Shown here in pieces: positions 1,212-5,040 of a stretch of 6,043 nucleotides of DNA (position 1 is the stretch's first letter; every line of letters starts with the position of its first letter). The position numbers and the translations under genes are program-made. The stretch spans positions 1-6,043 of the forward strand of contig JAFOHJ010000226.1 in NCBI GenBank assembly GCA_017421885.1. The letters run 5' to 3'. The notes beneath the pieces are model-generated. The model did no database searches. It was not told where the DNA came from and saw only the letters and a program-made list of their open reading frames with translations. The DNA comes from Clostridia bacterium. Lineage in GTDB: Bacteria > Bacillota_A > Clostridia > Oscillospirales > Butyricicoccaceae.

Positions 1212-2093
1212 ATGAGAAGATCTATGTTATTCATCCCGGGCAACACGCCCAACCTGCTGATGAACGGCGATGTTCTCGGCTCAGACAGCATCATTCTCGA
1301 CCTTGAAGACGCTGTATCTCCCGCCGAGAAGGACGCCGCAAGGATCCTTGTCCGCAATGCTCTCAAGAGCCTCGGATACAAGGGCTGCGAGATCATCGTC
1401 AGAATCAACCCCATCGAGACCGACTTTTGGCAGAAGGACCTTGACGAAGTCATTCCCCTCTGCCCCGGCATGATCATGCCCACAAAGGTAAGCTGTGCAC
1501 GCGATGTTCAGATCGTATCCGAGTATATCGCTCAGGTAGAAGCAAAGCACGGCATCGAAAAGAACACAGTCAAGCTCATCCCCCTCATCGAGACAGCAAT
1601 GGGCGTTGAGAACGCCTTTAACATTGCCTCGGCCGACGAGCGCGTTGCCGCCATCTTCCTGGGCGGCGAAGACCTGACTGCCGACCTTAGATGCAAGCGC
1701 ACCAAGGAAGGCAACGAGATCTTCTATGCCCGCTGCCGCATGGTAAACGCTGCCCGCGCTGCAGGCGTTGACGTTTACGACACTCCCTTCACCGATGTAG
1801 ATGACATCGATGGTCTCTACAAGGATGCCCAGTTCGCCAAGAGCCTCGGCTTCACAGGCAAGGCTTCCATCTCGCCCCGCCATGTCGAGGGCATCAACGA
1901 AGTTTTCAGCCCCACACAGGCCGATATCGACTATGCCCATGAGGTCATGGAGACCATCCGTATTGCCAAGGAGCAGGGCAAGGGCGTAGTTTCGCTGCGC
2001 GGCAAGATGATCGATGCGCCCATCGTAACACGCGCTATGCAGGTCATCGAAATGGAAAAAGCCATCTTCGGAGGTGTTGAAGACGATGAGTAA
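1212..2093 (+). CDS. citE: Citrate/citramalate lyase beta subunit (acyl-ACP lyase)
   Basis: This 293-residue TIM-barrel protein of the HpcH/HpaI-CitE family cleaves the carbon-carbon bond of the acyl-ACP thioester. It releases oxaloacetate if the substrate is citryl-ACP, or pyruvate if it is citramalyl-ACP, and leaves acetyl-ACP. Visible signatures are RRSMLFIPGN at the N-terminus, LDLEDAV at 29-35, VRIN with Arg64, LIET with Glu127 and GGEDLTADL with Asp154; the last two are the expected Mg2+ ligands. KASISPRHVEGIN at 217-229 is also typical. An AGGAGG at 1195-1200, inside the citD end, precedes the ATG by 11 nt. The 3' end overlaps citF by 8 nt (ATGAGTAA). Family membership is firm, but the keto-acid specificity cannot be read from sequence by eye. 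Confidence 0.95.
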   Translation: MRRSMLFIPGNTPNLLMNGDVLGSDSIILDLEDAVSPAEKDAARILVRNALKSLGYKGCEIIVRINPIETDFWQKDLDEVIPLCPGMIMPTKVSCARDVQIVSEYIAQVEAKHGIEKNTVKLIPLIETAMGVENAFNIASADERVAAIFLGGEDLTADLRCKRTKEGNEIFYARCRMVNAARAAGVDVYDTPFTDVDDIDGLYKDAQFAKSLGFTGKASISPRHVEGINEVFSPTQADIDYAHEVMETIRIAKEQGKGVVSLRGKMIDAPIVTRAMQVIEMEKAIFGGVEDDE

Positions 2094-3498
2094 GTTAGTT
2101 AATTCCATCAAGGAGGCAGTCATCCAGTCGGGCCTTAAGGACGGCATGACCATCTCCTTCCACCATCATATGCGCAACGGTGACTTTGTTCTCAACATGG
2201 TCATGGAGGCCGTTGCAGAGCTTGGCATCAAGGATCTGACCGTCAATGCCAGCTCAATCTTTGATATTCACGAGCCCATCATCGGCCACATCAAAAACGG
2301 TGTTGTGACCGGCCTCGAGTGCAACTATATGGGCGGCAAGGTCGGCAAGGCCATCTGCGAAGGCCTTATGGAAAAGCCCGTTATCTTCCGCACCCACGGC
2401 GGCCGCCCCTCCGACATGGAGAAGGGCACATCCCACATCGACGTTGCCTTCATCGCCGCTCCCACATCGGACGACATGGGCAACTGCACCGGTAAGTACG
2501 GCCAGTCGGCCTGCGGCTCGATGGGATATGCCTTTGCCGATGCCATGAATGCCGACAAGGTAGTCGTAATCACCGATAATCTGGTGCCCTATCCCCTGGT
2601 CGATTTTTCGATCTCCGAGATCTATGTCGATACAGTCGTAGAAGTAGGCCAGATCGGCAATCCTGCAGGCATCGTTTCGGGCACAACAAAGATCACACGT
2701 GACCCCGTCGGCCTCAAGATGGCTGACTATGCTGCCAAGGTCATCGAGGCATCGGGCCTTCTTAAGGACGGCTTCTCCTTCCAGACCGGCGCCGGCGGCG
2801 CTACCCTTGCAACCGCCAAGTATGTTCAGGATATCATGCTGGCCAAAGGCATCAAGGGCAGCTACGGCATGGGCGGCATCACCAAGTATATGGTAGAAAT
2901 GCTCGAAAACGGCTGCTTCCAGGCTCTGCTGGACGTTCAGTGCTTCGACCTTGACGCTGTCAAGTCGATCCGCGAGAACCCCAAGCACATGGAGGTCACA
3001 GCCACACATTACGCAGGTGTAAGCGGCAAGAGCGCAGCTGTAGATAACCTCGACGTAGTTCTGCTGGGCGCCACACAGGTCGACCTCGACTTCGGCGTAA
3101 ACGTACACACCGACAGTAACGGTTATATCATGGGCGGTTCTGGCGGCCACAGCGACACCGCTGCCGGCGCAAAGCTCACCATGATCATCGCACCTCTGAC
3201 ACGCGCACGTCTGCCTCTGGTAGTTGACAAGTGCCTCTGCACATCGACACCCGGCTCGACCGTCGACGTAGTTGTTACTCAGCGCGGCATTGCCGTCAAC
3301 ACAAAGTACGGCAAGAACCACGAGCTCAAGGAAGCCCTCAAGAAGGCCAAGCTGCCCGTCTGCGAGATCGAAGATCTCAAGCGCATGGCCGAGGAGATCG
3401 CGGGTATTCCCAAGGCTGTCAAGCTGACCGACAAAGTCGTCGCTAACGTAATTTATCGTGACGGCACTCTGCTTGACACCATCAAGGCTGTTAAGTAA
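2086..3498 (+). CDS. citF: Citrate/citramalate lyase alpha subunit (acyl-ACP transferase)
   Basis: This 470-residue transferase exchanges the acetyl group on the carrier protein for the substrate, giving citryl- or citramalyl-ACP and free acetate. It is a family I CoA-transferase-like fold. Motifs that match CitF include LKDGMTISFHH at 17-27, FQTGAGGATLA at 232-242, GGSGGHSDTA at 350-359 and TPGSTVDVVVT at 388-398. The start ATG lies in the citE tail, with GGAGG at 2070-2074 as its ribosome binding site. The frame is closed by a stop at 2026, so the protein truly lacks the ~40 extra N-terminal residues of E. coli CitF (about 510 residues), while the core is complete. Its last 61 bp are repeated downstream at 3622-3682, and the present 3' end may have been supplied by an insertion. 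Confidence 0.95.
   Translation: MSKLVNSIKEAVIQSGLKDGMTISFHHHMRNGDFVLNMVMEAVAELGIKDLTVNASSIFDIHEPIIGHIKNGVVTGLECNYMGGKVGKAICEGLMEKPVIFRTHGGRPSDMEKGTSHIDVAFIAAPTSDDMGNCTGKYGQSACGSMGYAFADAMNADKVVVITDNLVPYPLVDFSISEIYVDTVVEVGQIGNPAGIVSGTTKITRDPVGLKMADYAAKVIEASGLLKDGFSFQTGAGGATLATAKYVQDIMLAKGIKGSYGMGGITKYMVEMLENGCFQALLDVQCFDLDAVKSIRENPKHMEVTATHYAGVSGKSAAVDNLDVVLLGATQVDLDFGVNVHTDSNGYIMGGSGGHSDTAAGAKLTMIIAPLTRARLPLVVDKCLCTSTPGSTVDVVVTQRGIAVNTKYGKNHELKEALKKAKLPVCEIEDLKRMAEEIAGIPKAVKLTDKVVANVIYRDGTLLDTIKAVK
3438..3498 (+). repeat. Direct repeat copy 1: the 3' end of citF
   Basis: This 61-bp segment encodes the last 19 residues of CitF and the TAA stop. It matches 3622-3682 with no gaps at a spacing of 184 bp. 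Four bases differ: AAC/CAT accounts for two, TAT/TAC for one and AAG/AAA for one. This is the copy joined to the functional gene. Confidence 0.95.
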
Positions 3499-3527
3499 AT
3501 ATTTCCAAACTGCGGCGACGACTTTTC

Positions 3528-3543
3528 CGTCGGAAGTCCGACG
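3528..3543. repeat. Inverted repeat A in the insert
   Basis: CGTCGG (3528-3533) pairs perfectly with CCGACG (3538-3543) around the loop AAGT. A competing stem, GACTT 3520-3524 with AAGTC 3534-3538, overlaps it, so the segment could switch between two folds. Confidence 0.65.
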
Positions 3544-3546
3544 CTC

Positions 3547-3575
3547 GATTTTCGGCAATTCATTTGCCGGAAATC
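3547..3575. repeat. Inverted repeat B in the insert
   Basis: A 12-bp stem pairs 3547-3558 with 3564-3575, with one T/G mismatch (a G-U pair in RNA) and a 5-nt loop TTCAT. The core is CGGCAA/TTGCCG. Confidence 0.75.
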
Positions 3576-3591
3576 TATTCGATCCCAGGGG

Positions 3592-3619
3592 TCCCATAAA
3601 ATCTGATGATTTTATGGGA
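3592..3619. repeat. Inverted repeat C in the insert
   Basis: A perfect 12-bp stem pairs 3592-3603 with 3608-3619 around the loop TGAT. It is the strongest palindrome in the window apart from the terminators and ends two bases before the second citF-end copy begins. No U-tract follows it. Confidence 0.85.
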
Positions 3620-3621
3620 AA

Positions 3622-3682
3622 CGTCGCTCATGTAATTTACCGTGACGGCACTCTGCTTGACACCATCAAGGCTGTTAAATAA
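3622..3682 (+). pseudogene. Direct repeat copy 2: displaced 3' end of citF
   Basis: This is the second copy of the citF terminal 61 bp, 57 of 61 identical to 3438-3498. It encodes VAHVIYRDG through to IKAVK and a stop, against VANVIYRDG in the live gene. It is not in the same frame as citF (offset 184 is not a multiple of 3), and no start or upstream gene body belongs to it. Only 12 nt separate its stop from the terminator at 3695. That suggests this was the original citF end and that copy 1 arrived with the insert. Two of the four differences are silent third-position changes, the pattern expected if both copies evolved under selection as coding sequence. Confidence 0.8.
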
Positions 3683-3694
3683 TCTGATCCATTT

Positions 3695-3727
3695 AAAAGA
3701 GGAAGACTGCGGTCTTCCTCTTTTTTT
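3695..3727 (+). terminator. Rho-independent terminator of the citDEF unit
   Basis: AAAAGAGGAAGAC (3695-3707) pairs perfectly with the complementary arm 3712-3724 around a TGCG loop, and the T-run continues to 3727. It closes the adenosyltransferase-citDEF transcription unit. Confidence 0.93.
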
Positions 3728-4880: not shown

Positions 4881-5040
4881 GTCATTTGAGGAAACAGGTG
4901 AAAGACCTGTGCGAGCCCGTCGCCGTGAGACGCATTAAGAATGATCGACCTGACCCGAAGCCGCATTCGGGGACAGACCATTGGGGGAATCCTCTGAGAA
5001 GGTCGGACGGTCATGCGTCAAGCCGGAATATTCATCTGAC
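4881..5040 (+). ncRNA. Cobalamin riboswitch aptamer
   Basis: The 5' part reads GAGGAAACAGGTGAAA, then a closing ACCTGT and GCGAGCCCGTCGCCGTGA at 4911-4928. It follows the order of conserved blocks in cobalamin riboswitches (GGGAA, GGTG-AA, CCCGCCACTGTGA). The 3' part, AAGCCGGAATATTC then ATCTGAC (5020-5040), corresponds to the B12 box. A perfect 7-bp helix pairs GACGCAT 4929-4935 with ATGCGTC 5013-5019, joining the two conserved halves. The ~77 nt between hold a further helix (CGACCT with AGGTCG) and a hairpin (CCCGAA with TTCGGG), a rather large peripheral domain. ACAGGT 4894-4899 pairs with ACCTGT 4905-4910. The RNA senses a cobalamin and normally lowers expression of uptake genes when the vitamin is plentiful. 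Whether it prefers adenosyl- or aquo/methylcobalamin cannot be told here. Confidence 0.85.

Follow-up and report, generated by a model that had tools for sequence, protein, structure and literature searches.

The 123-bp insert at the 3' end of citF in the DNA discussed here, a stretch of 6,043 nucleotides that we refer to as the window, is not a one-off scar. It is a copy of a small, strongly folded, multicopy mobile repeat of gut Clostridia, belonging to a family that has apparently not been described before. On balance we favour the view that the family is non-coding and mobile, that it inserts mostly in sense orientation at the 3' ends of genes, and that it does so by a route through RNA.

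The doubled 3' end of citF

The citF gene, for the alpha subunit of citrate lyase, is at 2086-3498 on the forward strand (Pfam CitF, 1.5e-167 over 2089-3495), its ATG start having been picked by eye within an open reading frame of 2074-3498. A repeat search of the window found the last 61 nt of the gene (copy 1 or Y1, 3438-3498), which are in the citF frame and end the gene, again at 3622-3682 on the same strand (copy 2 or Y2), where they are joined to the downstream flank. The two copies align without gaps at a spacing of 184 and are identical at 57 of 61 positions, and the next-longest direct repeat among those listed for the window is 28 nt at 79%. The 123-nt block between the copies is not repeated after copy 2. 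An earlier note on this DNA had described the repeat with its four mismatches and the unrepeated block, and had placed copy 2 just 12 nt ahead of the terminator, and all of this is confirmed: the stem of a terminator-like hairpin (3695-3724, forward strand) begins 12 nt past the end of copy 2. The element is also as tiny as the note had said and without a recombinase, as the ORF list has no recombinase-sized frame in the 123 nt. The frames of at least 60 aa that reach into it are 3458-3682 (forward strand, off the citF frame) and 2254-3597 (antisense).

Most of the insert consists of the conserved structured core of the family, 95 nt at 3527-3621 on the forward strand, as delimited by core alignment, covariance model and fold. 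Three hairpins are predicted in it, A (3528-3543), B (3547-3575) and C (3593-3618), all on the forward strand, with C closed by the terminal G-run of the family; hairpins B and C have clear covariation across the family. X' (GCGACGACTTT, 3515-3525, forward strand) is placed between copy 1 and the core. It is an 11-nt exact reverse complement of a sequence X (AAAGTCGTCGC, 3433-3443, forward strand), which spans the left boundary of the duplication. The insert as a whole (3499-3621) has a fold z of -5.1 relative to shuffled sequence, and for 3425-3640 the value is -7.0, with a long predicted helix that takes in X and X'.

Of 170 relatives found, 80 citF loci were kept, most of them from assemblies labelled Clostridia, Oscillospiraceae or Lachnospiraceae, and the 3' ends of 14 were read by eye. 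One of these (L002) has the arrangement of the window with a diverged insert. The earlier note took the citF end to be the site of an insertion, and named as support relatives without the insert, whose single citF end leads directly into what follows; L014 (100% amino acid identity over residues 100-469) and L001 (94%) are of this kind, each having a single citF end followed by its own downstream sequence. L014, in genome G003, is the kept citF locus closest to the window, and the bases that come after copy 2 in the window (TCTGATCC) also come after its single citF end. No second citF tail was seen by eye in the other 11 of the 14 ends.

The window also includes a cobalamin riboswitch (4891-5030), which is followed by a DUF4430 gene and another open frame. 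A corrinoid adenosyltransferase is also encoded in the window, as is the end of methylaspartate ammonia-lyase.

Spread and fold of the repeat family

DNA searches with the insert listed 27 matches (E up to 10) for the genome of L001, 19 for that of L002 and 18 for that of L014, the best E values being 7e-14 to 2e-12, and four for that of L004, all of them weak (best E 0.4). A covariance model was built from an alignment of 40 cores, and the element ends given here, which come from that profile, could be wrong by a few nt. The model has matches in 35 of the 87 genomes of the bacterial family to which G003 belongs (E 1e-3), with the best match below 1e-6 in 28 of these carriers and a single weak match in several of the others. 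At the level of the order, 24 of a sample of 295 genomes, which overlaps the 87, have matches (E 1e-6). The core is about 95-105 nt across the family, with the conserved fold and covariation of a structured non-coding repeat family: 19 pairs, with 94.8% of cells paired and 12 pairs changed on both sides, and covariation as high in none of 500 shuffles. Rfam has no family that fits in the window, the insert region or eight loci, the cobalamin riboswitch alone reaching the threshold in the window, and nothing like the repeat was found among the open papers listed by full-text searches, subscription journals and preprints being outside those searches.

Sites with and without the element can be compared at several genes, by eye and for the loci listed. 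At nusA the position of the element with its second tail is shared by G001, G074, G077, G078 and G079, there is core-like sequence without a clear second tail in G075, G085 and G087, and the site is empty in G002, G003, G061, G062, G063 and G064. At dnaB G002 has the element, and G003, G061, G062, G063 and G064 have an empty site. The names nusA, dnaB and tRNA were read from the sequences by eye, and citF is the only one backed by Pfam. A copy of the repeat is also present in a phage contig (L296, 8041-8134), in the head-gene region, with the major head protein gene on one side and a gene of unknown function on the other, and its relative L298 has the empty site. The phage contig matches L134 at each of the 1400 bases compared, and is thus not independent of G061. 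Pattern searches of viral contigs gave a single match, and one element of the family had no match in collections of phage and plasmid records.

Variants of the arrangement were seen. G064 (loci among L174-L210) has a sub-family of the core with extra fixed 5' hairpins, and most copies read there have no duplication, several being just upstream of start codons. A regulatory-RNA role was considered for the latter and rejected, as the downstream genes look unrelated (names by eye). Tandem arrays of tail, X' and core are found at L090, L116, L122, L281, L391, L395, L402, L409 and L416, and in L116 and L122 the terminator stems inside the tandem tails differ by compensated changes.

Duplicated tails and the reverse copy of the landing site

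A direct repeat across the core (score at least 14) is present in 116 of 197 testable elements, made up of 69 of 126 and 47 of 71 in the two sets, for which mismatched controls gave 2.2% and 5.0%; this repeat is not in every case a gene tail, and six further elements, outside the 197, could not be scored. Many of the 81 elements without it are in G064, and several are directly before start codons. At this score the duplicated length ranges from 14 to 157 nt, the longest being tandem arrays, and Y is mostly 30-110 nt. A score of 20 and a start between -3 and +8 nt from the core end defined a set of 95 pairs, 18 of which are tandem arrays. Insertion is predominantly in sense orientation: 57 of the 77 non-tandem pairs have a sense ORF that comes to its end within copy 1, 6 have an antisense call and 14 have neither (35, 3 and 17 in the first set alone). 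Two of the antisense calls, L436 and L405, look sense to us when judged by their relatives L105 and L407. Any shared target motif is weak, with a slight purine preference at the joint.

The position of the right edge is best seen in what we call young pairs, those with no more than three mismatches in the coding part (n=35). In 26 of them the last identical base is between -4 and +5 nt from the last base of the stop codon, and in the other nine the edge is at -14, -10, -9, -7, 7, 12, 31, 48 and 50. The last two of these (L121 and L448) have it at or just after the T-run of a terminator, as do L447, L419 and L086. Right edges at stop codons or terminators suggest that the edge is the end of a transcript, and this is our main reason for proposing an RNA route.

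X' is present well beyond citF. Its duplex scores at least 7.5 in 51 of the 77 single duplications, compared with 5.5% when windows are drawn at random upstream in those loci, and at least 9 in 43 (control 2.0%); in 26 of the 77 no X' was found. By exact matches, at least 8 pairs are present in 22 of 41 cases (control 3.8%), the longest being 16. The duplex crosses the left edge of the duplication in 44 of the 51. X' can also pair with the start of copy 2 because of the duplication. It is already there in L135 and L202, whose two tails have no differences yet, and so was made at insertion. In the window and L002 X is one base apart (AAAGTC, AAGGTC) and X' shifts too (GACTTT, GACCTC), and similar compensation is suggested at nusA (GAA with TTC, GAG with CTC); it was not seen in the pair L159/L137. 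At positions inside the duplex where the tails differ, X' agrees with copy 1 in 12 cases, with copy 2 in 4 and with neither in 5, in an alignment that favours copy 1.

The two tails have diverged mostly by synonymous change. The 67 unique coding pairs have 205 synonymous and 29 nonsynonymous codon differences. If copy 2 were neutral 63% would be expected to be nonsynonymous (52-73% in 200 simulations), and the observed value is 21 of 210 with the first two codons excluded. Indels are present in 2 of the 40 pairs of the first set. The stop codon has changed and is still a stop in 13 of the 67 pairs, and has been lost from copy 2 in 4. With mostly synonymous divergence and few indels, copy 2 thus behaves like coding sequence. 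The nonsynonymous differences are concentrated in the first fifth of the tail (14 of 24). Clustering of all differences at one end was looked for and rejected, the rates per fifth being near even (0.22, 0.24, 0.16, 0.20 and 0.19).

Set against the frame of copy 1, copy 2 falls into each of the three frames (24, 21 and 22 pairs), so read-through or frameshifting into it is no general explanation. An in-frame start with no intervening stop lies within 90 nt upstream of copy 2 in 53 of the 67 pairs, so independent translation is possible for many but is again not general. In L272 and L273 a patch of closely spaced changes, shared by both and found only in nusA copy 2, alters two residues, and this speaks against constraint on copy 2. 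The joining of X to Y2 at the RNA level and recombination with other lineages are each a possible fit to the divergence of the tails. On the suggestion in the earlier note that copy 2 is the original gene end, the loci that can be polarised disagree: copy 2 in the phage is closer than copy 1 to the empty-site L298 over the last codons (by eye), and at nusA in L093 copy 1 is the more usual, with several synonymous changes on copy 2.

How the repeat may move

We suggest that insertion is probably through RNA. The core RNA would be joined to the left edge of Y, with the right boundary set by the 3' end of the sense transcript itself, at the stop codon or terminator. One copying passage would then write the core, X' and the transcript end. 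A new copy would in this way add X' and core and double the gene tail Y, beginning where the core is joined and ending near the stop codon, or at a terminator when one is included; copy 1 would keep the gene whole, and copy 2 would be the displaced tail. Passage through RNA alone leaves X' unexplained, and the model does not explain why the divergence of the tails is nearly all synonymous. A reverse transcriptase domain (RVT_1) is present in 7 of 15 carriers tested and was not found in the many-copy genomes G001, G002, G003 and G064, and Y1_Tnp had no match in G001, G003 and G064 and two in G002, in assemblies that may be incomplete. Neither a reverse transcriptase nor a Y1 transposase was retained as partner, neither having been found in G001 and G064, which are richest in copies.

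Other explanations have to be weighed against insertion through RNA. It is possible, if unlikely, that this is an ordinary mobile repeat with variable target duplication, and that the synonymous differences came from recombined alleles of other lineages and not from use of copy 2. The differences are indeed clustered at some loci (dnaB L095, nusA L093), the phage copy 2 has codons of the empty-site relative, and the compensated terminator-stem changes in the tandem tails of L116 and L122 also fit. However breakpoints would be needed between the tails at many loci, with 31 pairs differing at 4 or more nt, some of the copy-2 codons of L093 are in none of 20 other nusA ends compared, differences are in general spread along the tail, and X' fits copy 1 more often than copy 2, albeit in an alignment biased that way. 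We regard as unlikely a second alternative, read from the sequence patterns, in which the RNA from X to Y2 (Y1, X' and core) would be removed or skipped in some transcripts, X' pairing, in the manner of the internal guide sequence of group I introns, with the upstream end and the start of Y1 and being able to pair with the start of Y2. Spliced and unspliced messages would then encode the same protein, and insertion would be neutral either way. Such processing would be in keeping with the synonymous divergence, the kept stop codons and rare indels, the position of X' across the junction, the mixed frames of copy 2 and the sense bias. However no group I or II intron is among the Rfam matches, no gene in need of splicing was noticed among the elements read, the nonsynonymous patch in L272 and L273 does not fit, and in L121 and L447 Y1 has a terminator-like hairpin, so that little RNA should get to the core. 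The fullest form of the idea, a new minimal intron-like mobile RNA with a spare downstream exon, in which X' would be the guide that aligns the exon ends and X would be joined to Y2, is to our minds more doubtful still.

The earlier note had proposed an attL/attR scar of an integrase-driven element, which we consider very improbable. The doubled gene end around an insert and the existence of empty sites would be expected of it, and integrative elements at gene 3' ends do restore the gene end and keep the displaced end, as does this family. However the insert has no integrase or other recombinase-sized ORF, the same core is found behind many unrelated genes, dozens of sites in all, with the gene's own tail doubled each time, and there is thus no shared or conserved attachment site. 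Copies differ in how much is duplicated, and in many there is a reverse complement of the copy's own site, which to our knowledge is not a product of site-specific recombination. Among the loci read, none was seen to have a larger, recombinase-bearing element between the repeats. L001, L002 and L014 are metagenome assemblies, and assembly from short reads can mix up repeats or strains, but an assembly artefact is hardly credible given the same arrangement on contigs of 2.28 and 0.80 Mb (L403 and L404 of G249) and in one phage contig.

There are resemblances to several known systems. REP/BIME elements with RAYT are, like the repeat family, short, multicopy, structured and intergenic, but the Y1_Tnp domain was not found in G001, G003 and G064, and we know of no REPs with gene-tail duplication and a site-derived X'. 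MITEs and the enterobacterial RU and ERIC elements are also small, multicopy and non-autonomous, with RU repeats given as 103-168 bp (PMC2759123). The family differs from them in that its core alignment has no evident terminal inverted repeats (by eye) and its duplication is long, variable and ends near stop codons. Group I introns and IStrons have guide-like pairing across the joint, the 5' exon end of IStrons pairing with an internal guide sequence (PMC4227781). Our family resembles them in geometry only, through the duplexes that span the joint, and differs in having a core of about 95-105 nt, a second copy of the downstream exon and no group I match in Rfam, no intron family appearing in scans of the window, the insert region and eight loci. 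There was likewise no Rfam match to domain V of group II introns, and RVT_1 was not found in G001-G003 and G064. Non-LTR retroelements and SINEs, which use target-primed reverse transcription, have variable target duplications and pass through RNA. The variable-length duplications of our family and its proposed RNA passage are similar, but no reverse transcriptase was found in several carriers, X' is at the 5' junction, and the duplication is anchored at stop codons.

A repeat that writes the reverse complement of its landing site and duplicates the gene tail to the stop codon is outside the insertion mechanisms known to us. If it is driven by RNA, this would be retro-like insertion in genomes in which no reverse transcriptase was detected. 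If the elements are spliced, it would be a new type of intron tolerated in bacterial coding genes, and as the protein would be the same either way, splicing would no longer be at odds with the coupled translation of bacteria. The family also accounts for partial gene-end duplications in the genomes of Clostridia.
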